A stretch of DNA of 20,704 nucleotides from a virus: positions 1 through 20,704 of the IMG/VR virus record IMGVR_UViG_3300021960_000654, one strand, 5' to 3'. Made by a program: the position numbers and the translations under genes. Of the stretch, positions 1,111 to 19,525 are shown in pieces. The first letter of the stretch is position 1. The number at the start of each line of letters is the position of its first letter. The notes beneath the pieces were generated by a model that was not told where the DNA came from, did no database searches, and saw nothing but the letters and a program-made list of their open reading frames with translations.

Positions 1111-1118
1111 TATTTATA
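1111..1118 (+). promoter_or_regulatory. TATTTATA late-promoter-like octamer
   Basis: TATTTATA lies in the 29-base gap between two genes, with its last base five positions before the A of the ATG at 1123. The same octamer recurs before most transcription-unit starts in the window. If it behaves like the T4 late -10 box in position, the transcript would start at or beside the ATG. Function is inferred from recurrence only. Confidence 0.5.
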
Positions 1119-1122
1119 CTAT

Positions 1123-1719
1123 ATGTGCAGCTGTGGATGTAATACTTGCGACCTAAAAGCTGTCTTATTAAAAGAAAATAAGCACAGGCAGATTCTCTCC
1201 GAGAGTCTTAAATATCATATTGATAATAAAATCGCAATAACAGAAAACGTATACCGGTATGGGTCCAATCGCTTTTTAAGCCTTTGGAAAGAAGCCCGTT
1301 ACCTTTATTCACGTAATATCATTGACGTCTCTGAAACAGACGAATCTATACTTTTAGAAACTCACCTAGGCGAATACGGTCTTTATGAAGGTCAGAAAGT
1401 AGCTCTAGACTTACCCCAACTTGAAGAAGCTGAATACCAAGGTGAAAAAGTAGAATTAGGCAAACCTAAAAGAGGAGGCTCTAAAAAATTCTATGTTTAC
1501 GTCAAGGATCCTAAAACTAAAAAAGTAAAGAAAGTATCTTTTGGTGGTACTACCGGACTTAAGGCTAAAATTAATGACCCTGAAGCCCGTCAATCATTTG
1601 CCAAAAGACATAACTGTGATCAAAAGAAAGATAAGACCAAGCCCGGTTATTGGAGCTGCCGGCTTCCAAGATATGCTTCACTCCTTGGACTAAAAGGCTC
1701 TTATAGTGGATTCTGGTAA
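1123..1719 (+). CDS. Conserved phage protein with N-terminal Cys cluster and basic C-terminal domain
   Basis: 198 residues. It opens with a tight cysteine cluster MCSCGCNTC (C2, C4, C6, C9), then a helical stretch containing LLKE at 15-18. A middle module around 45-98 includes LGEYGLYEGQKVALDLP. A Lys-rich C-terminal domain (about 118-190) contains FYVYVKDPKTKKVKKVSFG, HNC (C165) and GYWSCRLPRY (C179). From memory, similar C-terminal domains occur in marine T4-like phages without assigned function; I cannot verify this here. Cysteines at both ends suggest metal binding, and the high Lys content suggests nucleic-acid contact. It overlaps the next gene by 14 bases. The start is chosen because it directly follows the TATTTATA element and lies at the 5' end of the frame. 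An N-terminal LKE motif makes it a candidate packaged head protein (inference). Confidence 0.75.
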   Translation: MCSCGCNTCDLKAVLLKENKHRQILSESLKYHIDNKIAITENVYRYGSNRFLSLWKEARYLYSRNIIDVSETDESILLETHLGEYGLYEGQKVALDLPQLEEAEYQGEKVELGKPKRGGSKKFYVYVKDPKTKKVKKVSFGGTTGLKAKINDPEARQSFAKRHNCDQKKDKTKPGYWSCRLPRYASLLGLKGSYSGFW

Positions 1720-2086
1720 GCTACATAAAGTCCTAAAAGAAGTTCTAGAAGAAAAGAAGCGTGATCGCTGTCTAAGGATTGCCGACCGTAAGTATGATAA
1801 ACCTTCTGCTTATAAATCAGGAGCAGTAGTTAGATGCCGTAAAGGGGATATCTGGAAGGATCTTAAAGAAGATGAAACTCTTCATAAATGGTTCTCTCGG
1901 AAAGGAGCTAAGGGAAGCACTTCCGGATGGGTAGACTGCAATGCACCCGACGGTAAGGGCGGATATAAATCCTGCGGAAGACAAAAAGGAGAAAAAAGAT
2001 CTAAATACCCTGCATGTAGACCCACCCCGTCTGCTTGTAAGGATAAAGGTAAAGGTAAAACTTGGGGTAAAAAATCTAAAAAATGA
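1706..2086 (+). CDS. Small Lys-rich, Cys-containing phage protein (GTG start)
   Basis: 126 residues, very basic. It starts with GTG at 1706 inside the end of the previous gene; no in-frame ATG offers a better start, and the resulting N terminus (GKLHKVLKEVLEEKK) resembles those of neighbouring genes. Six cysteines fall in two groups: C22 and C44 flank RIADRKYDKPSAYKSGAVVR, and C78, C90, C104 and C111 lie in a segment with GWVDCN, SCGR and YPACRPTPSACK, ending in a GKKSKK tail. I recall similar GWVDC...CGR...PACRPT domains in small phage and large-virus proteins of unknown function, but could not check. The Cys spacing suggests a zinc-binding or disulfide-stabilised fold. It overlaps the next gene by ATGA. 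A nucleic-acid-binding internal head protein is plausible but unproven. Confidence 0.7.
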   Translation: MDSGKLHKVLKEVLEEKKRDRCLRIADRKYDKPSAYKSGAVVRCRKGDIWKDLKEDETLHKWFSRKGAKGSTSGWVDCNAPDGKGGYKSCGRQKGEKRSKYPACRPTPSACKDKGKGKTWGKKSKK

Positions 2087-2403
2087 TTAAGTTAGCTGAC
2101 ATACTAAAAGAAGTAAAAGAATCCTTTGAAGAGTTTGCAGATACTCGAGGCAAGGGAGCAAGTAAGATTTCTGATTCCGCTCATGAAAAAGGTGGATTAT
2201 CTTTATTAACCTGGCACCACTTTAAGGTTAAATTACCTTATTATAAAAAAGCTACCGAGGGTAAATTAGATATGGAGAAAGCTAAAAAAGAATTTGAAGA
2301 CACTTATAAAAAGATTTCCCTAGATATGACTCAAACTGATTTTCAAAAAGAAGTTGGACGTTTAGAAGTTTTAGGCGAACTTTTAATAAGAAATAAACAA
2401 TAA
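2083..2403 (+). CDS. Small helical phage protein of unknown function
   Basis: 106 residues, start ATG overlapping the previous TGA (ATGA), so probably translationally coupled. The N terminus MIKLADILKEVKES contains LKE at 8-10, matching the [L/I]-x-E pattern of head proteins in this window. The rest is charged and mainly helical, with GLSLLTWHHFKVKLPYYKKA in the middle (W44, H45, H46) and a C-terminal helix QKEVGRLEVLGELLIR. No catalytic motif is evident. From memory, similar short proteins are scattered in marine T4-like genomes. Its place between Cys-rich genes and the terminase suggests a late, virion-associated role; that is inference. Confidence 0.7.
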   Translation: MIKLADILKEVKESFEEFADTRGKGASKISDSAHEKGGLSLLTWHHFKVKLPYYKKATEGKLDMEKAKKEFEDTYKKISLDMTQTDFQKEVGRLEVLGELLIRNKQ

Positions 2404-2427
2404 AGCTTTTTTAGTTTCTGCCTATAG

Positions 2428-3072
2428 ATGTTAAAGTTAACAGATAATAAACTATCTCCGATTTCACATTGGGGAATTCCTTTAGAAAGATTAGAAGTTC
2501 CTTCTGCTAAGGAGCTTGACTTATTTGATACCAACGGGTATGATTTAACTTTATTAGAGCAGAGTTATGCAGAGGTTAATTCTCCTGCTTCTTTACACCG
2601 TTATAAATTAGCTCTTAAATACCCATGGTTTACCTCAGAAGAAATTCTAGAAGGTGCTCATATTAATCATGCTCTTTTATTTGAAAGAAAAGGATACCAG
2701 GGAGCAGCTTTAGGTCAATTACAACATTGGTCAAAAAAGAACCCTCTAGTTAATAAAGTAGCTCAGATTAACCCTAAATGGGGAATTGATCTTTCGATAG
2801 ACTATGCTGATAAGGAAGGTAATGTATTTGAAGTCTTTCACTATGAATGGGATGGATTTGAATATGATGCCGTCTTAGAAATGAAATCTAAAATTGAGAC
2901 TCTGGCACTAAACATAGATTGGAATGATGCAGCAAAGACTCTCTTAAATAGAAAGTCTGAATGGGACTCACTACCGTTCTTTGAGCAGAGTGACTGGAAA
3001 TGTAAATACTTCGGAGTTGAACCTGAGAAGTTTAAAATCATTATATGGAACCGGGAATCGAAAATGAAATAA
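2428..3072 (+). CDS. Phage protein of unknown function, 214 residues
   Basis: 214 residues, preceded by a 24-base gap (2404-2427) that has a T-rich stretch but no hairpin or TATTTATA box. The N terminus is hydrophobic/aromatic (SHWGIPLERLEVP) and is followed by a helical region ending in the LxYPWFTSEEILE segment. A central block about 117-150 alternates strands with many aromatics and acids (WGIDLSIDYADKEGNVFEVF, then HYEWDGFEYDAV). The C terminus is helical with several Trp. I recognise no family or catalytic motif. The last 28 bases overlap the next gene in another frame. It is compact and non-repetitive with coding character throughout, so I consider it real but unassigned. Confidence 0.65.
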   Translation: MLKLTDNKLSPISHWGIPLERLEVPSAKELDLFDTNGYDLTLLEQSYAEVNSPASLHRYKLALKYPWFTSEEILEGAHINHALLFERKGYQGAALGQLQHWSKKNPLVNKVAQINPKWGIDLSIDYADKEGNVFEVFHYEWDGFEYDAVLEMKSKIETLALNIDWNDAAKTLLNRKSEWDSLPFFEQSDWKCKYFGVEPEKFKIIIWNRESKMK

Positions 3073-3338
3073 AGCCTTATAGGGATTTAGAAACCGGATC
3101 TAACTATGTCCTCCGTGAATTTGATAAGAATATAGATCCTATTGAATTACTATGGCATAGAGATGATGAACAGAGATTGGTTGAAGTCGTAGAATGCGGA
3201 AAAGGATGGAAATTCCAACTAGATAATCAATTACCTCAGAACTTAGAACCAGGATCATCTATATTTATATTAAGACACCAATGGCATAGAGTAATTAAAG
3301 GAGAAGGTAAATTGGTTGTAAAAATTAATAAAGAATGA
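3045..3338 (+). CDS. Small cupin-like phage protein
   Basis: 97 residues, starting inside the previous gene (28-base overlap) and itself overlapping the next start by four bases (ATGA). The sequence reads as a single small beta barrel: ELLWHRDDEQRLVEVVE, GWKFQLDNQLPQNLEPG, then SIFILRHQWHRVIKGEGKL and a final VVKIN strand. A first His/Glu-containing motif, a turn with PG, and a second motif with His resemble cupin metal-site spacing (H38 early; H77 and H80 late). The match is partial, so enzymatic activity is not claimed. I recall similar WHRDDEDR...HRVIKG proteins in T4-like marine phages. The true start could lie slightly downstream, because there is no clear ribosome-binding signal at 3045. 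Confidence 0.6.
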   Translation: MEPGIENEIKPYRDLETGSNYVLREFDKNIDPIELLWHRDDEQRLVEVVECGKGWKFQLDNQLPQNLEPGSSIFILRHQWHRVIKGEGKLVVKINKE

Positions 3339-3682
3339 AACGTTATATAGCACAGGTAGTTACAGTTTGGGGAGCTCTTATTCTGATATGGTTTCTCTTT
3401 ATAAAAGACAGTGACCCTTATATTGATAGAGAAGCCGAATTTCAACATCGTATAGACTCTCTAAACCTAGAAATACAGGCAGGTAAAGCTAAGATAGCTT
3501 CTCTAGATTCTGCCAACCACGTTTTAGATTCACTAGTTATAAAAGATAAAGCACAATTAACCGAGATAGCCCGCAAGGCTGAGGTTTATAAACAAAAATA
3601 CAATGAAGAACATAATCGTATTCTTGATATGTCTGATGATAACATCATCTCTGAGTTCACAGCAGCTTTCGACTACGACTGA
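3335..3682 (+). CDS. N-terminal membrane-anchored coiled-coil protein, inner-membrane spanin-like
   Basis: 115 residues. One hydrophobic segment near the N terminus (about 4-23, IAQVVTVWGALILIWFLFI) is preceded by basic residues, predicting N-in with the rest outside the cytoplasm. It is followed by a long heptad-like coiled coil (about 32-100; DREAEFQHRIDSLNLEIQ, then KIASLDSANHVLDSL) and a short tail, DNIISEFTAAFDYD. This topology and size match inner-membrane spanins (Rz type), which act with an outer-membrane partner in the final step of Gram-negative lysis. Its 3' end overlaps the next gene by 80 bases in a different frame, reminiscent of Rz/Rz1. Spanins are poorly conserved in sequence, so the call rests on topology and overlap. 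A tethered structural or exclusion protein is the main alternative. Confidence 0.5.
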   Translation: MKRYIAQVVTVWGALILIWFLFIKDSDPYIDREAEFQHRIDSLNLEIQAGKAKIASLDSANHVLDSLVIKDKAQLTEIARKAEVYKQKYNEEHNRILDMSDDNIISEFTAAFDYD

Positions 3683-4013
3683 TTCAACAGCAGTAGTACC
3701 TATTAAAGCCCTTAGAAAAGCCTTATTAGTAAAAGCCGAAAGAGACAACCTAAAAAACGAATTAGGAGTAGCAAGAGATTCTATCCAAATTCAGGACAGT
3801 ATCATCGTTAAACAAGATGAAGCCATCTTTAACCTAGTATCTCAAGTTGATATCTTTAGAGCTAATGAAAGAAACTACGAAGAAATAATAACTAATAAAG
3901 ATAGTATTATTATAGAAAAAGAAAAAAAGGTAGATCACTATAAAAAGAAAACTACAACAGCATATATCATCACAATATTGAATGCAGTAGCGTTTCTATT
4001 AGTTATAATATGA
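3603..4013 (+). CDS. Secreted coiled-coil protein with C-terminal membrane segment, spanin-like partner
   Basis: 136 residues, starting 80 bases inside the previous gene. Residues 1-19 form a signal-peptide-like segment (MKNIIVFLICLMITSSLSSQ) followed by a Ser/Thr-rich linker. A coiled coil runs about 36-115 with repeated D-S-I-I patterns (DSIQIQDSIIVKQDE), and a C-terminal hydrophobic segment (about 118-136, TAYIITILNAVAFLLVII) ends the protein. C10 within the signal is not in a standard lipobox (preceded by LI rather than small residues). An N-terminal export signal plus a C-terminal transmembrane segment resembles the layout of single-protein u-spanins, except for the missing lipobox. It overlaps the terminase start by ATGA. 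A lysis role is inferred from topology and its pairing with the preceding gene. Confidence 0.5.
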   Translation: MKNIIVFLICLMITSSLSSQQLSTTTDSTAVVPIKALRKALLVKAERDNLKNELGVARDSIQIQDSIIVKQDEAIFNLVSQVDIFRANERNYEEIITNKDSIIIEKEKKVDHYKKKTTTAYIITILNAVAFLLVII

Positions 4014-5587
4014 GTCAAGACTTAAAACAGATAATCAGGCAGGAATTCGTAAGATGTGTCGCAGATCCGGTGCATTTCATGAAAAAATACTGCTATATTC
4101 AGCACCCTCAACGTGGTAGAATACTATTTAACCTATATCCATTTCAGGAAAAAGTACTATCTCACTTCAAAGATAACCCGTATTCCATCATTTTAAAGTC
4201 AAGACAGCTGGGTATCTCCACCTTAGGAGCAGGATATTCACTGTGGTTGATGCTATTTCACAAGGATAAAAACGTTCTAACCCTGGCAACCACACAGGCA
4301 ACAGCAAGAAACCTGGTAGCTAAGGTACAGTTCATGTATGAGAACTTACCTTCCTGGTTAAAAGTACCATCGGTCGAACATAATAAGTTATCTTTAAGAC
4401 TGGCTAACGGTTCTAAGATCCAGGCTAAGTCTTCTAATTCAGATTCGGCACGTTCTGAAGCTGTATCCTTGCTTTTAATTGACGAGGCAGCTTTTATTGA
4501 TAACATTGCTGAGACTTGGGCATCAGCTCAACAGACTTTGGCTACTGGAGGAGGAGCAATCGTACTATCAACTCCATACGGTACCGGAAACTGGTTTCAT
4601 CAGACATGGGTCCGGGCAGAAAGTAAGGAGAATGACTTCCTTCCTATTAAGTTACCTTGGTATGTACACCCGGAAAGAGATCAATCATGGAGAGATAGGC
4701 AGGATGACCTATTAGGAGATCCAAGACTGGCAGCTCAGGAGTGTGATTGTGACTTTAGTACATCTGGAGACACAGTCTTCTACGGTGAGTTTATGGAATT
4801 CTATATGAAGACCTACATGAAGGAGCCTTTAGAAAGAAGAGGAGCAGATCAGAACTTATGGATCTGGGAACCAGTTGACTACTCTAGAAATTATATGGTA
4901 GTTGCCGACGTTGCCCGTGGAGACGGTAAGGACTATTCAGCATTTCATATCTTAGATATAGAAAATAATACTCAGGTCGGTGAATATAAAGGTCAAATAG
5001 GAACTAAAGAATTTGGTTTACTTTTAGTTGCAATAGCAACAGAATATAATGAAGCTTTACTTGTGGTTGAAAATGCATCCATAGGCTGGGCAGCAATTCA
5101 GACTATATTAGATAGAGGTTATAACAACTTCTACCACTCTCCTAAATCAGGAACATTAACAGCAGATTCATATTTTAATCAGTACGATATTCACAGCAAT
5201 ATGACTCCCGGGTTTACTATGAATTCTAAGACTAGACCTCTAATTATCGGTAAGTTTCAAGAAGCAATTAATGAAAAAGCAGTAATCATTCAATCTAAAA
5301 GGCTAATAGAGGAAATGAAAGTCTTTGTTTGGAAGAATGGCCGGGCAGAAGCACAGTATGGTTATAATGACGACTTGGTGATGTCATTCGGAACCGGGTT
5401 ATACGTTCGAGATACAGCCCTACAATTAAACCAGCAAGGTATTGATATTACAAAAGCTACTCTAGGAAACATCTCAACTAATAGAACACCCTACCAAGGG
5501 GTATATTCACCTACAGACGTTAAGAATCCTTATCAAATAGATAACGGACAGGGTGGAACAGAAGATTTCACCTGGCTTCTTAAATAA
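4010..5587 (+). CDS. 17: Terminase large subunit (T4 gp17-like packaging ATPase/nuclease)
   Basis: 525 residues, close to the usual size for T4-type large terminases. It docks on the portal, pumps DNA into the prohead by ATP hydrolysis, and cuts concatemers. The N-terminal ATPase has a Walker A region KSRQLGIST at 63-71, in which the usual Lys of GKT is replaced by Ile while a Lys sits at its start. Walker B is LLLIDEA with D158 and E159, and the coupling motif is LSTPYGTGNW at 187-196. The C-terminal RNase H-like nuclease shows VVADVARGDGKDYSAF (D300), LVVENASIGW (E354) and GYNDDLVMSF (D454/D455), giving the acidic metal triad. The start is coupled to the upstream stop. No small-terminase gene is recognisable beside it. 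The portal gene follows directly, without the sheath and tube genes found between them in T4. Confidence 0.95.
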   Translation: MSQDLKQIIRQEFVRCVADPVHFMKKYCYIQHPQRGRILFNLYPFQEKVLSHFKDNPYSIILKSRQLGISTLGAGYSLWLMLFHKDKNVLTLATTQATARNLVAKVQFMYENLPSWLKVPSVEHNKLSLRLANGSKIQAKSSNSDSARSEAVSLLLIDEAAFIDNIAETWASAQQTLATGGGAIVLSTPYGTGNWFHQTWVRAESKENDFLPIKLPWYVHPERDQSWRDRQDDLLGDPRLAAQECDCDFSTSGDTVFYGEFMEFYMKTYMKEPLERRGADQNLWIWEPVDYSRNYMVVADVARGDGKDYSAFHILDIENNTQVGEYKGQIGTKEFGLLLVAIATEYNEALLVVENASIGWAAIQTILDRGYNNFYHSPKSGTLTADSYFNQYDIHSNMTPGFTMNSKTRPLIIGKFQEAINEKAVIIQSKRLIEEMKVFVWKNGRAEAQYGYNDDLVMSFGTGLYVRDTALQLNQQGIDITKATLGNISTNRTPYQGVYSPTDVKNPYQIDNGQGGTEDFTWLLK

Positions 5588-5607
5588 ATTAAGTTGGCCT
5601 TTTTAAC

Positions 5608-5615
5608 TATTTATA
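5608..5615 (+). promoter_or_regulatory. TATTTATA late-promoter-like octamer upstream of portal
   Basis: TATTTATA sits in the 47-base gap between terminase and portal, with its last base 20 positions before the portal ATG. It belongs to the set of recurring intergenic octamers in this window. The function is inferred. Confidence 0.5.
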
Positions 5616-5634
5616 CTTATATTATTAAGACGTA

Positions 5635-7533
5635 ATGGCAGACACTGGCATATTCTCACGACTAAGAAGACTTTTCTCCACCGATGTTATAATCAGGAAT
5701 GTAGGAGGCGACCAATTAAAAGTTGCTGACACAAATCAGATTCAGATGTCCGGTGAGTTAGAAACGAATTCACTATTTGATAGATATAATAGAATTTATA
5801 CTACATCTCCTACATCTTTATATGGATATCAATCTAATTTCAACTATCAGACCTTAAGAACTCAGTTATACTCAGAGTATGACGCTATGGATACTGATGC
5901 TATTATTGCATCTACCTTAGATATCCTAGCAGAAGAATCTACCCTTAAAAACGATATGGGGGAAGTTCTTCAAATCCGTTCAGCAGACGAAAATATACAA
6001 AAGATTCTTTATAACCTATTTTATGACGTCCTAAATGTTGAATTTAATTTAAGTTGGTGGATTAGAAATATGTGTAAGTACGGTGACTTCTTCTTAAAAT
6101 TAGAAGCATCAGAAAAGTACGGAGTTTATAACGTAATTCCATTTTCTGCCTTTAACATAGAAAGACAGGAGGGCTTTGATAATGATAATCCTGCAGCAAT
6201 TAGATTTAGATATGACCCTGATGGATTAGCAGCTGATACCTATGGATACTTTAGAGGACCTAACCAATCAGCGGGTAAGGATATTTTCTTTGATAATTAC
6301 GAAATAGCACATTTTCGTTTATTAACAGACGTTAACTTCCTACCTTATGGCCGTTCTTATTTGGAGCCTGCAAGGAAATTATTTAAACAGTATACTTTAA
6401 TGGAAGATGCCATGTTAGTTCATAGAATAGTAAGAGCTCCTGAGAAGAGAGTATTTTATATGAACGTAGGAGGTATTCCTCCGGCAGAGATTGAGAACTT
6501 TATGCAGAAGGCTATCTCTAAAATGAAGCGTACTCCGTACATTGATCAACAGACTGGTGAATATAACTTAAAGTATAACATGCAGAATCTTATGGAGGAT
6601 TTTTATATCCCTATGAGAGGTAATGATCAAACTACTAAGATTGAAACTTTAGGAGGTTTACAATACGACGGTATAACAGACGTAGTTTACCTAAGAGATA
6701 AGTTATTTGCTGCTCTAAGAGTGCCGAAAGCATTCCTTGGCTACGACGAAAACTTACAAGGTAAAGCAACCCTGGCAGCAGAAGATATTAGATTCGGTAG
6801 AACCATTGAAAGGATTCAAAGAATCATGATTTCCGAACTTTATAAGATTGCCTTTGTACACCTTTACATTCAGGGATATAGAGATGAATCTTTAACTAAC
6901 TTTGAATTAGGACTTACTACTCCTTCAATCATTTTTGACCAGGAGAAAATTGCTTTATTAAAAGAGAAAGTTGATCTAGCCGTTCAAATCAAAGATTCAG
7001 GTCTTTTACCAACAGATTGGATTTATGATAATGTCTTCCATCTTTCTCAAGATCAATATGATGAATATAGAGATTTAATCTTACAAGATAAGAAGAGACT
7101 ATTCAGACAATCTCAGATTGAAAACGAAGGAAACGATCCTTTAGAGTCTGGAGAATCTTACGGAACTCCTCACGATATAGCCACAGCTTACGGTAAGGGT
7201 AGAGTTTATGACCGACCAGGAAACGTACCTGATGGATATAATGAAGATGAGCCTGAGATGGGCCGTCCTAGAGAAAAAGCATCAATTGCCGGAACTCAAA
7301 ATGATCCTTTAGGAAAAGATAGATTAGGTAGAGATGCTGCCAAGAATGATGACCAGGCAGACTTTGGACGTCCAAAAAGATCAGATGCTAGAGGTTACAG
7401 CTTAGAAGAAGCAGAGAAAATGGCTATGAGACATGAAGAAGCTTTAAAAGGAATACCTACTAAAAAACAGCTGGTATTTGAATCAGAAAAGAAAGCAGAC
7501 AGCTTACTAGATCCAAAACAAATTAGGGAATAA
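5635..7533 (+). CDS. 20: Portal vertex protein (T4 gp20-like)
   Basis: 632 residues. Portal proteins form the ring through which DNA enters and leaves the head, and in T4-like phages they nucleate prohead assembly. Recognisable gp20 features are the basic N terminus (FSRLRRLFSTD), YDAMDTDAIIASTLDILAEE near 82-101, NLSWWIRNMCKYGDFFLKLE near 138-157, LTDVNFLPYGRSYLEPARK, RAPEKRVFYMNVG, and the DQTTKIETLGG...VPKAFLGYDEN segment that precedes the crown. It is about 100 residues longer than T4 gp20. The extra length is a charged, low-complexity C-terminal region after about residue 500 (DRPGNVPDGYNEDEPEMGRP and following), probably disordered. It has its own TATTTATA element upstream. Confidence 0.95.
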   Translation: MADTGIFSRLRRLFSTDVIIRNVGGDQLKVADTNQIQMSGELETNSLFDRYNRIYTTSPTSLYGYQSNFNYQTLRTQLYSEYDAMDTDAIIASTLDILAEESTLKNDMGEVLQIRSADENIQKILYNLFYDVLNVEFNLSWWIRNMCKYGDFFLKLEASEKYGVYNVIPFSAFNIERQEGFDNDNPAAIRFRYDPDGLAADTYGYFRGPNQSAGKDIFFDNYEIAHFRLLTDVNFLPYGRSYLEPARKLFKQYTLMEDAMLVHRIVRAPEKRVFYMNVGGIPPAEIENFMQKAISKMKRTPYIDQQTGEYNLKYNMQNLMEDFYIPMRGNDQTTKIETLGGLQYDGITDVVYLRDKLFAALRVPKAFLGYDENLQGKATLAAEDIRFGRTIERIQRIMISELYKIAFVHLYIQGYRDESLTNFELGLTTPSIIFDQEKIALLKEKVDLAVQIKDSGLLPTDWIYDNVFHLSQDQYDEYRDLILQDKKRLFRQSQIENEGNDPLESGESYGTPHDIATAYGKGRVYDRPGNVPDGYNEDEPEMGRPREKASIAGTQNDPLGKDRLGRDAAKNDDQADFGRPKRSDARGYSLEEAEKMAMRHEEALKGIPTKKQLVFESEKKADSLLDPKQIRE

Positions 7534-7544
7534 AATTTAACACA

Positions 7545-7552
7545 TATTTATT
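7545..7552 (+). promoter_or_regulatory. TATTTATT variant of the intergenic octamer
   Basis: TATTTATT, within TATTTATTATAAAA, lies in the 34-base gap after the portal gene, with its last base 16 positions before the GTG start at 7568. It is a one-base variant of the recurring octamer. Confidence 0.4.
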
Positions 7553-7567
7553 ATAAAACCGACTATT

Positions 7568-8401
7568 GTGCAGAACAAACACTCGAAATTCAAGAATACA
7601 GGTCTTCTTTTTGAACTTTTAGTAAGACGGATTACCGCCGACACTTTAGAAGGGAAAGACTCTGCTGCTATTGATATTCTAAAAAAGTACTTCTTAAATA
7701 GTGAATTAGGAAAAGAATATAAATTATACGAGCAGCTTTCCAAGTATAAAAACTTAACTGAATCTAAGGCTGAATTAGTAATCAATAGCCTGGTTGAAAC
7801 CTCATCTAAACTAAACCGTACCGAGGTTAGAAAGCAGAGATACAATCTAGTACGTGAAATTAAAGAAAATTACAGCGTAGAAAAATTCTTCAAAGTTAAA
7901 ATTAATAACTATAAAATTTACGCTGCTTTAAACAATCTTATTGAAAACCATACATCTACTGATATAGCACCAGAAGTCGTTATTAATAATAAAATGACTT
8001 TACTGGAGCATCTTTCTAAAGCACCTGTTGAGGAAAAGAGAGATGAATTAATGGAGGAATTTAACGGGTATGATAAGGATTTAAAGATGCTTACCTACAG
8101 GGTTCTTCTTGAGAAATTTAATGAGAAGTATGACGATCTAAAGTCTGCACAAAAAGAAGTCTTAAAAGAATTTATTAACTCTGTAGATGCACCTGAGAAA
8201 TTAAAAGAGCTTTATAACAATAGAATACCAGGAATTAAAAGTACTTTAGAAAGAAAAATCAAGAGTATTGAGGACCAGGTAGTTAAAATTAAATTACAAG
8301 AAGTTCTTAAATACGTAACACCTTTGGAGAAAAACGATAAATTCTCTAATGACGATATTGTTAACCTTTTACAGTATTACGAACTAATTAACGAACTTTA
8401 A
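7568..8401 (+). CDS. Conserved head-region protein of T4-like phages, unknown function
   Basis: 277 residues, GTG start with N terminus MQNKHSKFKNTGLLFELLVR; no in-frame ATG lies nearby and this start follows the TATTTATT element. The protein is strongly helical and charged, with repeated Lys/Glu-rich helices and no catalytic motif. Segments such as FKNTGLLFELLVRRITADTL and KKYFLNSELGKEYKLYEQL look like proteins I recall next to the portal and protease genes of marine T4-like phages, where they remain hypothetical. Its place between portal and prohead core genes suggests a role in prohead assembly or as a core component (inference). A three-base gap separates it from the next gene, so the two are probably co-transcribed. 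Confidence 0.8.
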   Translation: MQNKHSKFKNTGLLFELLVRRITADTLEGKDSAAIDILKKYFLNSELGKEYKLYEQLSKYKNLTESKAELVINSLVETSSKLNRTEVRKQRYNLVREIKENYSVEKFFKVKINNYKIYAALNNLIENHTSTDIAPEVVINNKMTLLEHLSKAPVEEKRDELMEEFNGYDKDLKMLTYRVLLEKFNEKYDDLKSAQKEVLKEFINSVDAPEKLKELYNNRIPGIKSTLERKIKSIEDQVVKIKLQEVLKYVTPLEKNDKFSNDDIVNLLQYYELINEL

Positions 8402-8404
8402 AAT

Positions 8405-8614
8405 ATGACTAGGACCGAGTTTAAAAGACAGCTTAAGGAAATGTCTACCTCGGCCGGTGCAGGGGCGTACTTAGGAAAGTATGCTTATAATCCTAATAAG
8501 AACGCTAAAGGAGCTGCAAGGAATTATTACCTTAAACTAGGTTGGAAACTTGTAGACCAGAATAAACTAAGAAAGAAGGCCAAGGGCCTAGTAGTTAAAG
8601 ATCTTTGGAAATAA
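8405..8614 (+). CDS. Small basic prohead-region protein with LKE N terminus
   Basis: 69 residues, markedly basic. The N terminus MTRTEFKRQLKEMST has LKE at 10-12, followed by a Gly/Ala-rich turn (SAGAGAYLGKYAY) and a basic helical C-terminal half (YYLKLGWKLVDQNKLRKKAKG, then LVVKDLW). Its size, charge, N-terminal [L/I]-x-E site and location between the portal and protease genes recall T4 genes 67 and 68 (small prohead core proteins) and T4 internal proteins, although I see no clear sequence identity to them. It could be a packaged, DNA-neutralising core protein cleaved by the gp21-like protease; this is inference. Confidence 0.7.
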   Translation: MTRTEFKRQLKEMSTSAGAGAYLGKYAYNPNKNAKGAARNYYLKLGWKLVDQNKLRKKAKGLVVKDLWK

Positions 8615-8961: not shown

Positions 8962-8969
8962 TATTTATA
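8962..8969 (+). promoter_or_regulatory. TATTTATA late-promoter-like octamer at leaderless spacing
   Basis: TATTTATA occupies the 21-base gap after the previous stop. Its last base is exactly six positions before the A of the ATG at 8975, so a T4-like start site would coincide with the initiation codon. An ATG at 8971 is out of frame and soon hits a stop, supporting 8975 as the start. Confidence 0.5.
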
Positions 8970-10567: not shown

Positions 10568-10723
10568 CAATCTATATTTAAAGATAGCTTTTCGGAAAAA
10601 CATCTATATTTATTAAAAGTAGATATGCTATCTCAATATAGCATTCTGAAAAACAAGTTAAACAAACTACATTACGCTTGAAATCAAATAAGCGTATTTT
10701 CCAAAACAAATTTTAGGAACAAA
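10568..10723 (+). promoter_or_regulatory. Structured leader before scaffold gene: TATTTATT box and hairpins
   Basis: This 156-base gap is the longest in the window. It holds two related elements: TATTTAAA at 10575-10582 and TATTTATT at 10607-10614, each inside a TCTATATTTA repeat. Two hairpins follow. The first has a 7-bp stem 10625-10631/10638-10644 (ATGCTAT/ATAGCAT) with a six-base loop. The second has a stem 10673-10679/10690-10696 (TACGCTT/AAGCGTA) with a ten-base loop, followed by TTTT. A transcript starting near 10620 would carry about a 100-base structured leader before the scaffold ATG. Protecting the abundant scaffold/capsid mRNA or partial termination are both plausible; neither is shown. 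Confidence 0.5.
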
Positions 10724-13772: not shown

Positions 13773-13799
13773 GATAAACCTTACGTAAAGTAACTAGAG

Positions 13800-13825
13800 A
13801 GCCCGGTGAAAGCCGGGCTTTTTTT
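13800..13825 (+). terminator. Intrinsic terminator after the major capsid gene
   Basis: A 7-bp GC-rich stem AGCCCGG (13800-13806) pairs with CCGGGCT (13813-13819) across a TGAAAG loop and runs into seven T (13819-13825). It is the only classical strong rho-independent terminator in the window and closes the head-gene transcription unit. Confidence 0.92.
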
Positions 13826-13848
13826 ATGTTCGTTCCTCAATAAGAATC

Positions 13849-13856
13849 TATTTATA
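13849..13856 (+). promoter_or_regulatory. TATTTATA late-promoter-like octamer upstream of phoH
   Basis: TATTTATA (in TATTTATAATAAAG) follows the capsid terminator and ends 26 bases before the phoH ATG. A terminator followed by this element argues that it restarts transcription. Confidence 0.55.
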
Positions 13857-13881
13857 ATAAAGTTATTAATCTTATTAAAAT

Positions 13882-14571
13882 ATGCCAAGCAATCATCACA
13901 CGGATGAGGTTTTTAAGGAGAAAAGAAAGCCAAAAAATCCTATTAAATTTGGAATAACGTTAAATGAAGAACAGAAACTTGCTAAAGCAGAAATCTTACA
14001 CCACGACGTCACAGCCATCAAAGGCAAAGCCGGTTCAGGTAAAACCATGCTTGCCGTTCAAACCGGATTAGATCAATTATTTAATAGAGAGGTAGAGAAA
14101 ATGATTATTGCCCGGCCTTATGTAACTGCCGGAGAAGATATCGGATTTTTACCAGGAGGAGTAGATGATAAATTATCTTATTTAACTTCTCCGATTTATA
14201 ATATAATGTATGATCTAGTCGGAAAAGCTAAGACAGAAAAGCTTGTAAATGACGGGGGTGTCATAGTGGCTCCCTTTGGCTTTTTGAGAGGTAATACATT
14301 CTCTAACTGTTATGTTTTAATTGATGAGGCACAAAATGCCACTATGAAACAAACAGAATTAATGCTGGGCAGACTCGGTTTAGGATCTAAGATGGTCTTC
14401 TGCGGGGATATGTCCCAGTGTGACTTGAGAAATAAAAAAGACTCTGGATTTGATTTCTTTTTAAAGCTAGAAATTGAAGTACCTGGGGTAAAAGTAATAA
14501 ATCTCTACCAGAATCACAGACACGATGTAGTTGATCCTGTTTTAGATGTATTTATAAGATATAGGGATTAG
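13882..14571 (+). CDS. phoH: PhoH-like P-loop ATPase
   Basis: 229 residues. The PhoH family comprises ATPases related to the PhoH/YlaK/PhoL group, widespread in marine phages; their phage role is not settled, with proposals including RNA metabolism and phosphate stress. Walker A is GKAGSGKT at 48-55. Walker B is VLIDEAQ at 145-151, followed by NATMKQTELMLGRLG. The sensor-like segment is FCGDMSQCD at 173-181, and a conserved NHRHDVV occurs near 211. GEDIGFLPGG (84-93) and PFGFLRGNTF (131-140) are also typical of the family. The basic N-terminal 25 residues are probably an extension. It has its own promoter-like element after the capsid terminator. A phoH gene between capsid and fibre genes is not the T4 arrangement. 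Confidence 0.93.
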   Translation: MPSNHHTDEVFKEKRKPKNPIKFGITLNEEQKLAKAEILHHDVTAIKGKAGSGKTMLAVQTGLDQLFNREVEKMIIARPYVTAGEDIGFLPGGVDDKLSYLTSPIYNIMYDLVGKAKTEKLVNDGGVIVAPFGFLRGNTFSNCYVLIDEAQNATMKQTELMLGRLGLGSKMVFCGDMSQCDLRNKKDSGFDFFLKLEIEVPGVKVINLYQNHRHDVVDPVLDVFIRYRD

Positions 14572-14596
14572 GCAGAGACTTATCCTTCTATACTGA

Positions 14597-14604
14597 TATT
14601 TATA
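14597..14604 (+). promoter_or_regulatory. TATTTATA late-promoter-like octamer
   Basis: TATTTATA (in TATTTATAATAAAA) ends nine bases before the ATG at 14613. Its downstream sequence nearly matches that at 13849, suggesting an extended consensus TATTTATAATAAA. Confidence 0.55.
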
Positions 14605-14612
14605 ATAAAACT

Positions 14613-15008
14613 ATGTCTGCCGGGAGATACAACTTTTATATAGAACAAGGAGCTACCTTTAAATTAGACTTAGCGTACAAAGATTCAAACGGCGATCCTG
14701 TTGATCTTACAGATTACAATGGTCGAATGCAAATCCGACCCTCCGTTACTTCAGATACAGTCTACCTTACACTATCTAGCTCTTATAACTCAGACGGTAC
14801 CGGTCTTCATTTTTCTGGTTCTAATAATAATCTTCCACCAACCTCAGGCACAGTAGGAGTAATTATAGCCTCTTGTACTAGCTCGGATTTAAGCTGGTCT
14901 GGAGATGCTTACTATGATCTAGAGCTTTACTCAGGATCTGGAGATTGTGCTTATACAGTAAGGTTGATAGAAGGAAAGGTAAGACTCAGTAAGGAAGTAA
15001 CCCGTTAA
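14613..15008 (+). CDS. Fibre/baseplate-associated beta-structured protein (BppU-N-like)
   Basis: 131 residues. The opening RYNFYIEQGATFKLDLAYKD, followed by DPVDLTDYNGRMQIRPSV, resembles N-terminal domains of tail fibre or upper-baseplate proteins in many phages (a strand, then a bounded GxPxDLTxYxxRMQIR turn). The C-terminal YYDLELYSGSG and VRLIEGKVRLSKEVTR complete a small beta sandwich. It probably sits at the base of the fibres as an adaptor. Its stop overlaps the next ATG (TAATG), implying coupled translation with the following fibre protein. Assignment is by pattern memory, so the exact position in the virion is uncertain. Confidence 0.7.
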   Translation: MSAGRYNFYIEQGATFKLDLAYKDSNGDPVDLTDYNGRMQIRPSVTSDTVYLTLSSSYNSDGTGLHFSGSNNNLPPTSGTVGVIIASCTSSDLSWSGDAYYDLELYSGSGDCAYTVRLIEGKVRLSKEVTR

Positions 15009-15778
15009 TGGCAGGTAATAATATACATATTAACGTCGATGAAAACAGAGTAATCGTCCAAGAGAACCAAACTCAAATAGTACAGGTTGTTGCTCAAGGA
15101 CCTCAAGGTGCTCGTGGACCAGTCGGCCCTGCCGGACCTTCTGGATCTGCTGAAGCAGTAGGTCCTATAAGCTCTTTACAGTACAATAAGGATGGTACTA
15201 CCGTCTCAGGTAGTAGTCTTTTACTATTTAATGATTCTACCGGTGCAGTAACTTTATCTGGAAGCCTGTTAATATCAGGAGCATTAATACCAAATGCCGA
15301 TCCAGCAACCGGCCTTTCCTCTTTTTCTTTAGGAAGTGCAACCAATGCCTGGAAAGATCTTTACGTTGGAGATTCTACAATATACTTTGTTAGTCAATCT
15401 ACAGTTTACCCTTTAACTATTGAAACTAACGATGCTGGCTTAGTAACTTTAAAAATAGATAATCACGAGGTACCTCTCGCCGGAGTTACCGGTAGTCAAG
15501 ATATAACAGCTTCCTTAGCGGATACTGCATCGTTTGCAATAACAGCTTCTTATGCTTTAAATGCATTAAATGCTTTTTCAAACTTTATTTACACAGGCTC
15601 AATAACAGCTTCTGTTGACATATCTGATGATATCTTTTTAATCAAATCTGCATCAGTAGAAATGTTTAAAATCAATAATGAAGGAGTAACAATCTTAAAA
15701 ACAAACAATACAACACCCTCGGCAGTAGCCGGTGGTATATTCTATTCAGGATCAGGAGATTTTTTCTTCGGCTCCTAA
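15008..15778 (+). CDS. Tail fibre-like protein with short collagen-like segment
   Basis: 256 residues, start overlapping the upstream stop. The N-terminal 30 residues (NNIHINVDENRVIVQENQTQ) form a strand-rich attachment segment. They are followed by a short collagen-type GXY stretch GPQGARGPVGPAGPSG at 31-46. The remainder has fibre-like repeats: ATNAWKDLYVGDSTIYF near 111-127 and the alternating ASLADTASFAITASYALN at 168-185, a pattern common in phage trimeric fibres. The C terminus (FYSGSGDFFFGS) is hydrophobic and may be a trimerisation tip or a contact with the next fibre. It is probably a structural fibre or connector. No enzymatic motif is seen. Confidence 0.75.
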   Translation: MAGNNIHINVDENRVIVQENQTQIVQVVAQGPQGARGPVGPAGPSGSAEAVGPISSLQYNKDGTTVSGSSLLLFNDSTGAVTLSGSLLISGALIPNADPATGLSSFSLGSATNAWKDLYVGDSTIYFVSQSTVYPLTIETNDAGLVTLKIDNHEVPLAGVTGSQDITASLADTASFAITASYALNALNAFSNFIYTGSITASVDISDDIFLIKSASVEMFKINNEGVTILKTNNTTPSAVAGGIFYSGSGDFFFGS

Positions 15779-15779
15779 C

Positions 15780-15787
15780 TATTTATT
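15780..15787 (+). promoter_or_regulatory. TATTTATT variant of the intergenic octamer
   Basis: TATTTATTAATAA lies directly after the stop at 15776-15778, ending (octamer) 29 bases before the ATG at 15816. The A-rich stretch AAAAAAACTAAGAAAATAAA precedes the start codon, as expected for a Bacteroidota-type SD-independent start. Confidence 0.4.
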
Positions 15788-15815
15788 AATAACGTAAAAA
15801 AACTAAGAAAATAAA

Positions 15816-17486
15816 ATGGCAAGTTGGAAAAAAGTCATAGTCTCTGGATCGTCCGCAGAACTATCATCATTAAGCCTTGATACCGCGTTAACCGTAGCAA
15901 ACGGCGGTACTGGAGTATCCACGGTAGCAACCAATGGAATACTTTACGGCAACGGGACAAGCGCATTGCAGGTAGCTTCAGCTGCTGCTAATTCAGTATT
16001 AATAACTAACGGTTCAAACGTACCTAGTTTAAGCACAACCTTACCTTCAGCAGTTCAAGGAAACATCACAAGTGTTGGAACGATTGGAAGTGGTACTTGG
16101 CAAGGTACTGCAATCGCAGATACTTATGTTGCTAACGACTTAACTATCGACGGTGGTACTGTAGATAACACAGTAATCGGAGGTTCAACTCCTGCTGCTG
16201 GTACATTCACATCTGGTAGCTTTAAAGGAATTGCACTTACTAATAACGGAACACTTTCCGGTATAGGGTCTAATATAATATTTACAGGTGCCAATTCTAG
16301 CTTAACTGGTTCGTTCTCTGGATCATTTTCAGGAGACGGTTCTGGATTATCAGGAGTAACAGCTAACTTCCCAACTACATTAAAATCTTCACCTCTTGCT
16401 GCAACAGATTTATTCTTCTATAATGATAATAACGGATCTAATCCTTCTAAGAAATTAACATTAGGAACTTTAGCAACTGATATTGCCGGATCTGGTTTAA
16501 CCGTTGTAGGTAGTAAAAATCTTCATGTAGATTCTGGTTCTTTAGCAACTTACTTCCGTCAGGATGCTTATTCGAACGTAAGCGGTGATATTACTATCGC
16601 TTCAAACGGTACAGCAGCTATCGGATCTGGAGTAATCGTTAACGCCGACATTAACGCCTCAGCAGCAATCGCTGTTTCAAAATTAGCAGCAAGTACAATA
16701 TCTGGAGTTACATTAGGTAATAACTTAGCCAACTTAGTAGACGGAAACGGTATTGCAGACTTTACCTACAACGGTTCAGCTGGAGCAACAGTTACTGTTG
16801 AAGCAGATGGATCTACTTTATCTGTAGGAGCTAGTGGTGTTAAAGTAGCCGATGCCGGAATTACAGAAACACAATTAAACACTTCAGTTGCAGGTACTGG
16901 TTTATCAGGCGGTGCCGGAACAGCCTTATCAGTAGATTACGGAACTTCAGCAGGTACAGCAGCACAAGGTAACGTATCAGTTACATTTGCCGGAACTAGT
17001 AACGAAATTGAACTTAGCACTAACACCTTCTCAACTATCGGTGGTGGTGGATCAGTTACTATCGGATTACCTAACGATGTAACAATTGGAAATAACTTAA
17101 CAGTTACTAACGATCTTTCAGTAACAGGAAATGCAGTCTTTAATAGCGATATTACTGTAAGAGGAACTGCTTCATTTGAAAATACTCAAAACTTAGAAGT
17201 TGCAGATAGATTCATCTTACTTGCCTCTGGTTCAACATCAGCCGGTGACGGTGGTATTGTAATCCAGCAATCAGCAGGAAAAATAGGAGCAGTATTTGCA
17301 TATGATGGAGCATCTACATCTAGATGGGGAATTGCAACAGGATTCCATGCTTCAGCATCAGCATACACTCCAGAAGCATTTATGGGAGTTATCTTCGAAG
17401 GTACTACTGCCGCTGCTACATCAGCTGGATATGATGAAAAAGGTCATATTGTAGTAAACGGAGAAGATATCTATATTTACTCATAA
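15816..17486 (+). CDS. Tail fibre protein, SWKK-type N-terminal anchor
   Basis: 556 residues. The N terminus MASWKKVIVSGSSAELSSL is shared with the later fibre gene at 18077 and probably attaches the fibre to the same site. The body is Gly/Ser/Thr/Ala-rich with fibre-like beta repeats: ANGGTGVSTVATNGILYGN, VGTIGSGTWQGTAIAD, and GSFSGSFSGDGSGLSGVTAN. A series with ISxDxNASAAIAVSKLA resembles repeats common in phage and bacterial adhesive fibres. The C-terminal 150 residues (VTGNAVFNSDITVRGTASFE onward, with GDGGIVIQQSAGKIGAVFAY and a final GEDIYIYS) form a distinct non-repetitive tip domain, likely the receptor-contacting or trimerisation end. No cleavable chaperone motif is evident. Confidence 0.85.
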   Translation: MASWKKVIVSGSSAELSSLSLDTALTVANGGTGVSTVATNGILYGNGTSALQVASAAANSVLITNGSNVPSLSTTLPSAVQGNITSVGTIGSGTWQGTAIADTYVANDLTIDGGTVDNTVIGGSTPAAGTFTSGSFKGIALTNNGTLSGIGSNIIFTGANSSLTGSFSGSFSGDGSGLSGVTANFPTTLKSSPLAATDLFFYNDNNGSNPSKKLTLGTLATDIAGSGLTVVGSKNLHVDSGSLATYFRQDAYSNVSGDITIASNGTAAIGSGVIVNADINASAAIAVSKLAASTISGVTLGNNLANLVDGNGIADFTYNGSAGATVTVEADGSTLSVGASGVKVADAGITETQLNTSVAGTGLSGGAGTALSVDYGTSAGTAAQGNVSVTFAGTSNEIELSTNTFSTIGGGGSVTIGLPNDVTIGNNLTVTNDLSVTGNAVFNSDITVRGTASFENTQNLEVADRFILLASGSTSAGDGGIVIQQSAGKIGAVFAYDGASTSRWGIATGFHASASAYTPEAFMGVIFEGTTAAATSAGYDEKGHIVVNGEDIYIYS

Positions 17487-17491
17487 AAATC

Positions 17492-17507
17492 GGCAAAATA
17501 ATTTGCC
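17492..17507 (+). terminator. Weak hairpin after fibre gene
   Basis: A perfect 6-bp stem GGCAAA (17492-17497) and TTTGCC (17502-17507) with a four-base ATAA loop starts five bases after the fibre stop and is followed by TTCTTAGTT. It may be a weak terminator or an mRNA 3'-end stabiliser; the T-tract is poor. Confidence 0.4.
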
Positions 17508-17523
17508 TTCTTAGTTAAACAGT

Positions 17524-17531
17524 TATATATT
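17524..17531 (+). promoter_or_regulatory. Degenerate octamer TATATATT before small genes
   Basis: TATATATTAAAACC sits just upstream of the ATG at 17539 and resembles the TATTTATTATAAAACC element at 7545 downstream of the octamer. It is a weaker match and could be ordinary A/T-rich start context. Confidence 0.25.
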
Positions 17532-17538
17532 AAAACCA

Positions 17539-17739
17539 ATGGGGTTATTAGCAAATATTAAAAACAATAATAAAAGCAAAGATAAGTCAGGAGAGGTCCA
17601 AAACGCCTCTCTTGACCTGTCTAAGCAGGAATTAGAAATTATATTAAGCGGTCTAGGTGAGGCATCTTTCAAAGGCCGTCAATTGGAGCTAGTTTATAAG
17701 CTCGTAATTAAGTTACAACAAGCACATCAAAAGTTATAA
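17539..17739 (+). CDS. Small helical phage protein, paralogue-like to the next gene
   Basis: 66 residues. The first 25 are Lys/Asn/Ser-rich and probably disordered (IKNNNKSKDKSGEVQN). The rest is a helical domain, LSKQELEIILSGLGEASFKG then RQLELVYKLVIKLQQ. I recall similar ILxxIxxSxFKGxxxExVYxLxxKLQ proteins in marine T4-like phages, with unknown function. It ends with a TAATG overlap to the following gene, whose core can be aligned with it without gaps. The position between two fibres suggests an assembly factor or small structural protein for fibres; this is inference. Confidence 0.65.
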   Translation: MGLLANIKNNNKSKDKSGEVQNASLDLSKQELEIILSGLGEASFKGRQLELVYKLVIKLQQAHQKL

Positions 17740-17975
17740 TGAAGATCTTAGAACAGCGGTTAGATATAGTAGAACACCAGGTCTTACTTTCGGCCTTAGA
17801 TCAAATTCAAATTTACGGCAAAGACGCTATGAAGGTAGCACTTCTTCAAGAAAAACTTTCCGGAGGATTTAAAGCCTTACAACAGGCAGAAGCAGAAGAA
17901 AAATCCCAGATTCAGAACGTTCAGGATCAATTGAAAGCTGAACCGGAAAAACCTAAACACAGGTTTGTAAAATAA
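17739..17975 (+). CDS. Small helical phage protein, related to the preceding gene
   Basis: 78 residues, start overlapping the preceding stop by one base. A helical core (EHQVLLSALDQIQIYGKDAM, then KVALLQEKL) lines up with the preceding protein's core, sharing the LS-x-L turn, the G-[KR] and the final KL. It is followed by a coiled, Gln/Glu-rich helix (ALQQAEAEEKSQIQNVQDQL) and a basic tail (EKPKHRFVK). No membrane or catalytic features are seen. The pair probably arose by an old duplication and works together, perhaps in fibre assembly. Confidence 0.65.
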   Translation: MKILEQRLDIVEHQVLLSALDQIQIYGKDAMKVALLQEKLSGGFKALQQAEAEEKSQIQNVQDQLKAEPEKPKHRFVK

Positions 17976-17981
17976 GTAGAC

Positions 17982-17999
17982 TCGTAATCATATTTACGA
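17982..17999 (+). promoter_or_regulatory. Palindrome next to octamer, operator-like
   Basis: TCGTAA (17982-17987) and TTACGA (17994-17999) form a perfect inverted repeat around TCATAT, ending two bases before the TATTTATA box. It could be a factor-binding site or the 3'-end hairpin of the upstream mRNA. Confidence 0.35.
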
Positions 18000-18001
18000 T
18001 A

Positions 18002-18009
18002 TATTTATA
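18002..18009 (+). promoter_or_regulatory. TATTTATA late-promoter-like octamer with GC-rich leader downstream
   Basis: TATTTATA lies in the 101-base gap before the second SWKK fibre, ending 68 bases before its ATG. Unlike other copies, it is followed by a comparatively GC-rich leader containing CCC-GAAA-GGG (18024-18033, a possible GNRA tetraloop) and CAGG/CCTG (18041-18044/18052-18055), suggesting a structured 5' untranslated region. Confidence 0.5.
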
Positions 18010-18076
18010 AAAGATATTATAGGCCCGAAAGGGAAGTGGGCAGGCACAAATCCTGTAACCAACCGTAATTGAACAT

Positions 18077-19525
18077 ATGCCAAGCTGGAAAAAAGTCATT
18101 ATATCCGGCAGCGATGCTGCCCTGAACTCGTTAGACATCACTCAAGATCTAACAGTAGATACAAATACCCTTTATGTAGATTCAAGTAATAACCGTGTTG
18201 GTATTGGAACCGCTAGTCCGAGTCAAAAATTAACCGTTGAAGGAGACATTACAGGATCTGGGTATGTTAAAGGATCTACCCTATACGCCCTTGACGATGT
18301 TGTAGTTGGAGATCAGATACTACATTACGGGGATACTGATACAAACCTAAGTTTTACAACCGATAAAATACAAATCAATGCCGGTGGAGTAGAGATGATC
18401 ACTCTCACCGAAGGAGCAGCAGATAATGTTCATATTAATGCCGGTGCAGTAGATATGGACTTTAAAGTCTCTACCGATAACGATAATGATACATTGTTTG
18501 TTGAAGGTAGTACGGATAGAGTTGGTATTGGTACTAGCAGTCCTGGTGCAAAATTCCATGTAAGCGGTGGAGGGTTTGATGTCTATACTGATTATTCTGC
18601 AACCAACGCTTCAATAGGTATATCTTCCTTAAAAAAGACAAGCGGTTTTAGCGCCTTAGTTGTTGGAAGATCTCACAGTATAAACGATTCATTAGCACTA
18701 AGATTTAACTATGTTGGAGCCAATAATGCATCTAACTACTTAGGTCTTGGATTTTATGCTAACGATGATTTGCTAGTTGTAAAACCATCCGGCAACGTAG
18801 GTATTGGTACTACTAATCCAACATATCAACTACATGTATCAAGTAGTACTGCTGCTTTAGGAGTATATGAAAGAGCAGGAGGAGCTGCCTTATACTTAGA
18901 AGGTCAGTTAACTCGAGGTGTGATGGGGACTGTGGGTGCACACCCATTACTAATTGCATACAATAGTGGTGAAGTAGCAAGATTTACAGGAACATCATTT
19001 GATGTAACTGGATCTTTAAATGTAGGAACTGGAACTGATATAAACTTAATTGGAGGAGGAAATTTAGAAACCAACGGAGGAAATGTAAATACAACCGGAG
19101 GAAGTATTAATATCGGAGGAGGAGCTGTAAACGGAACCATTCCTGGATCAGCAGTAAACGTAGATGTTGTTACTGCAACCATTAAGAACTTCGTAATCGA
19201 TCACCCAACCCCTGAAAAAGAAGGGTATAAATTAAGACACTCATCTTTAGAGGGACCTGAAGCAGGAGTATATTTTAGAGGAAAATCAACCTCAAACATA
19301 ATCGATCTTCCAGATTACTGGGTAGATTTAGTAGAAGAAGAAAGTATAACAGTAAGTTTAACACCATTTAGTTCTCCTTGTCAGCATTACATAGAAGACA
19401 TAAGGGATAACCAGGTTATTATAGGTTGTGCCTGCGGTACTCCTAACTACCACTTTACTGTCTACGGAGAAAGAAAAGACGTTGAAAAACTTGTTGTTGA
19501 ATACAAAGAAGAAAAATATTTATAA
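18077..19525 (+). CDS. Tail fibre protein with VGIGT repeats and conserved C-terminal tip domain
   Basis: 482 residues. The N terminus MPSWKKVIISGSDAALNSL repeats the anchor of the fibre at 15816. Three copies of a VGIGT-x2-P unit (residues 41-45, 149-153 and 241-245; for example VGIGTASPSQKLTVEG) mark beta-solenoid-like shaft segments of a kind frequent in Bacteroidota surface proteins and their phages. A Gly/Asn-rich stretch (about 325-360, GGGNLETNGGNVNTTGGSIN) precedes the C-terminal domain beginning FVIDHP at 372. That domain carries LRHSSLEGPEAGVYFRG, DLPDYWVDLV, SITVSLTPF, two close Cys (GCACG) and YGERKDVEKLVVEY. I recall such FVIDHP/SLEGPE domains at ends of phage and bacterial fibre-like proteins, possibly a trimerisation or chaperone-like tip. 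The likely role is a second, alternative receptor-binding fibre. Confidence 0.85.
   Translation: MPSWKKVIISGSDAALNSLDITQDLTVDTNTLYVDSSNNRVGIGTASPSQKLTVEGDITGSGYVKGSTLYALDDVVVGDQILHYGDTDTNLSFTTDKIQINAGGVEMITLTEGAADNVHINAGAVDMDFKVSTDNDNDTLFVEGSTDRVGIGTSSPGAKFHVSGGGFDVYTDYSATNASIGISSLKKTSGFSALVVGRSHSINDSLALRFNYVGANNASNYLGLGFYANDDLLVVKPSGNVGIGTTNPTYQLHVSSSTAALGVYERAGGAALYLEGQLTRGVMGTVGAHPLLIAYNSGEVARFTGTSFDVTGSLNVGTGTDINLIGGGNLETNGGNVNTTGGSINIGGGAVNGTIPGSAVNVDVVTATIKNFVIDHPTPEKEGYKLRHSSLEGPEAGVYFRGKSTSNIIDLPDYWVDLVEEESITVSLTPFSSPCQHYIEDIRDNQVIIGCACGTPNYHFTVYGERKDVEKLVVEYKEEKYL
19517..19524 (+). promoter_or_regulatory. TATTTATA octamer overlapping stop codon, leaderless spacing
   Basis: TATTTATA spans the last codons and stop region of the preceding fibre gene, ending exactly six bases before the A of the ATG at 19530. 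The spacing matches that of the 8962 copy. Confidence 0.45.

Follow-up and report, generated by a model that had tools for sequence, protein, structure and literature searches.

The octamer TATTTATA as a probable late promoter core in T4-related phages of Bacteroidota

A strand-biased octamer in the window and its relatives

The 20,704-nucleotide stretch of DNA analyzed here (positions 1 to 20,704 of IMG/VR virus record IMGVR_UViG_3300021960_000654, hereafter the window) carries all of its genes on the + strand, and profiles recognized terminase, portal, prohead protease, major capsid protein, and PhoH in its structural module. An octamer, TATTTATA, recurs just ahead of some of these genes, and a sequence-only reading had proposed that it is a promoter recognized by a diverged gp55-like sigma factor. 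Enrichment of the element among relatives and a sigma homologue encoded by them support that proposal. We consider it likely that TATTTATA is the late promoter core of a T4-related phage clade of Bacteroidota, most likely read by a phage gp55-like sigma, with the pairing of sigma and box the step that we infer.

To place the octamer in its clade, 80 related IMG/VR loci were collected by a capsid-protein search, the nearest having an 84% identical capsid protein. Genes were called by a simple longest-open-reading-frame (ORF) method, so single start codons may be wrong. In the window and the 80 loci together, TATTTATA occurs 429 times on the coding strand versus 128 times on the other strand. 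The same-strand gaps of the 80 relatives alone hold 312 copies, compared to a mean of 19 and a maximum of 32 after shuffling. When all same-strand gaps of the window and relatives were scanned for strand asymmetry without a seed, the top 10-mer was ATATTTATAA, with a ratio of 179:0. This 10-mer was always on the coding strand in near-complete genomes (17:0, 23:0, 0:10, and 0:20 by strand), and it was split 146:4 by strand in 80 loci obtained separately from a sigma-alignment scan. The gaps are about 76% A+T and lone copies do exist inside genes, as expected if composition alone produced the pattern, but a 16-fold excess over the same gaps after dinucleotide shuffling and the 179:0 asymmetry already refute chance as an explanation. 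The lack of enrichment over AT-matched shuffled sequence that would have counted against the sequence-only reading was therefore not seen.

Within the window, TATTTATA and its variant TATTTATT occur 12 times, with 12 of 12 copies on the + strand and 0 on the − strand. Exact TATTTATA was found 9 times versus 2.8 expected, a count reached by 0 of 100 dinucleotide shuffles. Pooling it with TATTTATT gave 12 versus 5.6 expected, as high as in 3 of 100 shuffles; the exact octamer thus carries most of the signal, and such whole-window counts are by themselves modest evidence. Location is more telling: noncoding DNA makes up 5.1% of the window and holds 6 of the 9 exact copies (binomial p ~1e-6), versus 0.3 expected from shuffled gaps. 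All copies listed by the sequence-only reading, both upstream of genes and within them, were found at their positions, and the strong terminator that it placed ahead of the 13849 copy proved real, with a locatable stem and T-run (Table 1).

Table 1. Octamer copies and the intrinsic terminator in the window
Feature	Position	Strand	Distance to next ATG	Remarks
TATTTATA box	1111..1118	+	4 nt to ATG 1123	Implies nearly leaderless transcript or later start codon
TATTTATA	3262..3269	+		Intragenic (gene 3045-3338); probably chance
TATTTATA box	5608..5615	+	19 nt to ATG 5635	Upstream of portal (gp20-like)
TATTTATT variant	7545..7552	+	15 nt to ATG 7568	Exact TATTTATA in 43/56 orthologues
TATTTATA box	8962..8969	+	5 nt to ATG 8975	Conserved in close relatives L003, L004, L006
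TATTTATT	10607..10614	+	109 nt to ATG 10724	Extended matrix score −2.0 bits, weak; doubtful
Intrinsic terminator	13800..13825	+		3' of major capsid gene; stem AGCCCGG/CCGGGCT (13800-13806 / 13813-13819), then T-run (13819-13825)
TATTTATA(ATAAA) box	13849..13856	+		Flanked by terminator and phoH ATG 13882
TATTTATA	14549..14556	+		Intragenic, end of phoH; probably chance
ATATTTATAATAAAAC, top-scoring box	14597..14604	+	8 nt to ATG 14613	17.3 bits
TATTTATT variant	15780..15787	+	28 nt to ATG 15816	Moderate match
TATTTATA box	18002..18009	+	67 nt to ATG 18077	12.5 bits
TATTTATA	19517..19524	+	5 nt to ATG 19530	Overlaps last codons of gene 18077-19525; 2.5 bits, weak extended match

Several of these boxes recur in orthologous positions. 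Exact octamers lie within 70 nt upstream of the portal gene in 29 of 52 orthologues (38 of 52 allowing one mismatch) and upstream of phoH in 27 of 65 (49 of 65 with up to one mismatch), and the copy ahead of gene 14613 is kept in 22 of 25. At the end of the window, positions 19530 to 20702 hold an open-ended ORF whose product has long collagen-like G-x-Q/T-G repeats and is probably of the tail-fibre type.

Orientation, terminators, and genes served

Alignment of 334 sites defined the full element as a T-rich tract, A or C, TATTTATA, and then A n W A A A. Upstream, positions −8 to −3 are T-rich and position −1 is A (0.94) or C; downstream, A has a frequency of 0.72 at offset 8 and 0.84 to 0.86 at offsets 11 and 12, with A preferred across offsets 11 to 13. 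The extension TATTTATAATAAA suggested earlier is exact at two window sites (13849 and 14597), and a better form is [AC]TATTTATAAnWAAA with the T-rich tract directly upstream. Because the flanks are asymmetric, T-rich on one side and A-rich on the other, the orientation of the element is fixed. No −35 element is conserved, since none of the columns between 50 and 9 bases ahead of the octamer rose above 0.13 bits over background in the 334 sites. The distance from octamer to ATG has a median of 15 nt and a 5th-to-95th percentile range of 4 to 73 nt, with most boxes 8 to 30 nt from the ATG.

The relationship to terminators is equally directional. Both a terminator and a box were found in 72 of 502 gaps, and the box was 3' of the terminator in 72 of 72, mostly 1 to 12 nt past the T-run. 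The T-run in these gaps is commonly only 20 to 30 nt from the ATG, leaving no space for a second full promoter. Terminator stems vary between loci while the box persists, most clearly upstream of phoH. Presence of the box before some genes (portal, 7568, and 14613) and its absence before capsid and protease genes fits the starts of transcription units.

These features also bear on whether the box acts in RNA. An AU-rich 5' leader could aid ribosomes on genes lacking a Shine-Dalgarno sequence, like the A-rich positions in Flavobacterium, and both the usual 8- to 30-nt spacing and the preference of Bacteroidota translation for A at −3, −6, −12, and −13 (PMC6847099) are in its favor. Such a translation signal is nevertheless improbable: distances to the ATG range from 0 to >70 nt, boxes that follow a terminator sit too close to it for a separate promoter to fit between, no box precedes the capsid or protease genes (0 of 68 orthologues for the latter), and at early genes another motif is found about as far from the start codon.

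A further question was raised by the observation that TATTTATA is the exact reverse complement of the T4 late octamer TATAAATA, which could make it an opposite-strand T4 late promoter driving antisense RNA. This is still less probable than a translation signal. The − strand is nearly gene-free, flanks are asymmetric, and boxes lie 3' of + strand terminators and near + strand starts; in the same-strand gaps of the 80 relatives, moreover, TATAAATA on the coding strand reaches merely twice its shuffle expectation (42 versus 21). To call the element the T4 box in reverse complement, as the sequence-only reading did, is correct to the letter but misleading, since it suggests a flipped element. TATAAATA is nearly palindromic, its two central bases being the only ones to change on reverse complementation, so "reversed" is equivalent to changing the central AA to TT at −10/−9, with box and orientation the same. 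Directional flanks, terminators, and gene starts all indicate that the box acts in the coding direction.

Genes downstream of the box were examined in relatives. In phage immuto, an annotated relative with a 63% identical TerL, the octamer was found upstream of terL, portal, sheath, tube, baseplate hub, tape measure, and other genes. Across five genomes, the labelled genes next downstream of matrix hits were virion or lysis genes in 46 of 59 cases and early or metabolic genes in 13 of 59, a tally of functional labels and not of timing, so that "late" here refers to gene function. The same octamer precedes portal, pre-sheath, and tube genes in phage Mel-JY01, which encodes the same sigma. In Rhodothermus phage RM378, use of the box was not clearly seen, and the sigma is different and extracytoplasmic function (ECF)-like.

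A second promoter class was observed in immuto, with the bipartite, host-type motif TTG-N20-TATMTTTAG clustered at 61 to 76 kb ahead of small unknown (early) genes. This motif fits the primary-sigma promoter type of Bacteroidota, TTTG / TAHHTTTG (PMC6847099). Host-type promoters were upstream of zero labelled virion genes in the five genomes. In one relative (G001), two near-identical tandem cassettes (22823/22836 and 23456/23469) each pair an early box with a late box 13 nt further on; both are preceded by a terminator-like hairpin and stand ahead of similar genes. Mel-JY01 (PP395634.1, L205-L208) has Bacteroidota-type promoters of the form cTTGCATA ... CGTATATTTG, for example at 53716, 83393, 143695, and 130012(−). 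Given these promoters and a sigma typical of Bacteroidota phages, this phage, which carries a Microcystis label, may in reality infect a Bacteroidota bacterium growing alongside in the culture. Immuto also encodes QueC, QueD, QueE, QueF, FolE, and DpdA (L083 18607-37015), which suggests 7-deazaguanine DNA modification.

A gp55-like sigma factor in the relatives

The search for a gp55-like sigma called for earlier located one in relatives of the window. Profile searches found a sigma-region-2 protein of about 232 to 259 amino acids in 4 of 5 clade genomes, and a scan with the alignment of the new sigma returned 80 loci; the immuto member, gp118, is annotated merely as hypothetical. Of 46 members, 44 matched Sigma70_r2 (PF04542), where the best E was 5.7e-5 and the example fell below the curated cut-off, and 29 matched phrog_234, the late-sigma gp55 family. 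Scores were individually weak, and the family-wide agreement is consistent with a gp55-like protein. Profile-profile comparison by hhalign against ten gp55s gave an E of 5e-6 and a probability of 86% over region 2, and a fold search returned mostly sigma factors, with weak scores. A direct phmmer search with T4 gp55 detected no homologue in the relatives, where only profile searches succeeded. The family phrog_12791 had no match in them, and the sequence profile of the new sigma had no match in the PDB.

The sigma gene comes directly after the block of early genes in immuto, G001, and G002, and its stop codon is followed by a late box in the first two of these. Directly 5' of the sigma gene in 78 of 80 loci (e.g., L084:27900-28193), and usually abutting or overlapping it, is a gene for a conserved protein of about 95 amino acids with an N-terminal membrane segment, a possible membrane regulator. 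This small gene was weighed as a candidate gp33 counterpart, an idea dropped given the membrane segment judged from its sequence.

Contacts between T4 gp55 and its box allow the two families to be compared. In T4, A-12 is held by Y97 through stacking, A-9 by N13/H95, and A-8 by T99 (PMC7892883). In register with the T4 box, A-12 and A-8 are the same in TATTTATA and −10/−9 become TT. Y97 aligns with a tyrosine that is invariant in the new family (46 of 46), and the other pocket residues are not retained. N13, an Asn in 9 of 10 gp55s, lies opposite an invariant T11 or H/Q12 in a stretch of uncertain register; the counterpart of H95, which varies among gp55s too, is Y/F. The residue pattern thus appears to fit the box at −12 and −9, but not clearly at −8.

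The late promoter of T4 (gp55/gp33/gp45; Straboviridae; PMC2988020, PMC7892883) is the closest known system. The two share a TATA-type box of 8 bp in the −10 position, the lack of a −35 element, A/T-rich DNA downstream, virion genes as the genes served, and a phage factor of the sigma-region-2 type. The new box is tightly conserved, but as a variant with 6 of 8 bases identical to TATAAATA in the same register. The systems differ in the central AA-to-TT change and in the Bacteroidota host. In silico late promoters of KVP40, 44RR, S-PM2, and Aeh1 are variants of the same box family, with drift possible at −13/−12 in Aeh1, but TT at −10/−9 is reported for none of them (PMC2988020). While the early phage promoters resemble those of the Bacteroidota primary sigma, the late box has no −33 element and ends in ATA rather than TTG (PMC6847099).

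Weighing the late promoter

In the mechanism that we propose, TATTTATA would be the −10-type core of a late promoter with no −35, used by the genus Immutovirus and many uncultured relatives. By analogy to T4, the octamer would occupy −13 to −6, placing the first RNA base about 6 bases downstream. Its most likely reader would be host core RNA polymerase with the phage gp55-like sigma (immuto gp118) attached, with early genes served by the host primary sigma at TTG-N20-TATMTTTAG.

Several observations weigh against this proposal. In 33 of the 334 aligned sites (about 10%), and at 1111, 8962, and 19517 in the window, the octamer ends only 3 to 5 nt from the annotated ATG, so close that a start 6 nt downstream would land in the codon. 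No exact octamer was found within 70 nt upstream of the capsid gene in any of 80 orthologues, and this gene must therefore be transcribed by read-through from upstream. Early or metabolic genes make up 13 of the 59 labelled downstream genes, and so the class called "late" may extend to "middle" genes. The match of residues to bases is imperfect, as T99 is replaced by Gly, with Thr adjacent, even though the A-8 that it contacts is unchanged. The sigma gene lies outside the 20.7-kb window, with sigma data taken from relatives, and was not found in G004, one large partial relative. In addition, G001 encodes a second sigma (L095:7367-7903) that is ECF-like, has regions 2 and 4, and is related to the RM378 family phrog_1740.

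This last protein is one candidate for a different reader of the same promoter, the others being a phage-modified host primary sigma or a host alternative sigma, and TATTTATA does partially fit the host −7 element TAHHTTTG (PMC6847099). A reader of this kind is unlikely, if less so than a translation signal: the late box has no −33 element although the host-type class in the same genomes is a strict TTG-N20-TA, and the ECF-like sigma is present in only 1 of 5 clade genomes compared to 4 of 5 for the gp55-like protein.

If a gp55-like sigma reads the box, it may do so differently from T4. At the C terminus of the new sigma is a domain of about 95 amino acids for which the PDB offered no matching fold. 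No T4-like LDFLY clamp-binding tail was seen, and the family ends in a conserved ENGYTNF after a long helix. Predicted alone, this domain (L125:10448-10732) is all-helical with a pLDDT of 87. It was considered as a fused sigma-4 or gp33, and both ideas were dropped when the predicted domain had no PDB match below an E of 0.6. The replisome also differs from that of T4, consisting of polA/DnaB/DnaG with a family A DNA polymerase. Searches of five relatives for a gp45-like or DnaN-like clamp (phrog_223, PF02916, PF00712) gave no credible match, with the T4 control found by the first two. Sliding clamps diverge fast in sequence, so absence by sequence search is weak evidence. We tentatively raise the idea, which we hold to be somewhat doubtful, of a clamp-independent form of T4-type late transcription, in which a gp55-like sigma would carry a new C-terminal domain where T4 has the clamp-binding tail, and would be retuned to TATTTATA for Bacteroidota RNA polymerase and uncoupled from a gp45-type clamp.

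A literature search, in which subscription papers and preprints were thinly covered, turned up no paper describing TATTTATA as a late promoter of phages. The map outlined here would be the first proposed early and late promoter map found for this abundant T4-related Bacteroidota phage group, and it would assign a function to immuto gp118. Because a cultured phage and host exist, immuto and Flavobacterium sp. LMO8, the promoter prediction is directly testable. The clade may also represent a natural experiment on the DNA specificity of gp55-type sigmas, in which orientation was kept, two bases were exchanged, and some of the corresponding pocket residues were altered. Should no clamp take part, these phages would test whether late transcription was tied to replication ancestrally or only in the T4 branch.

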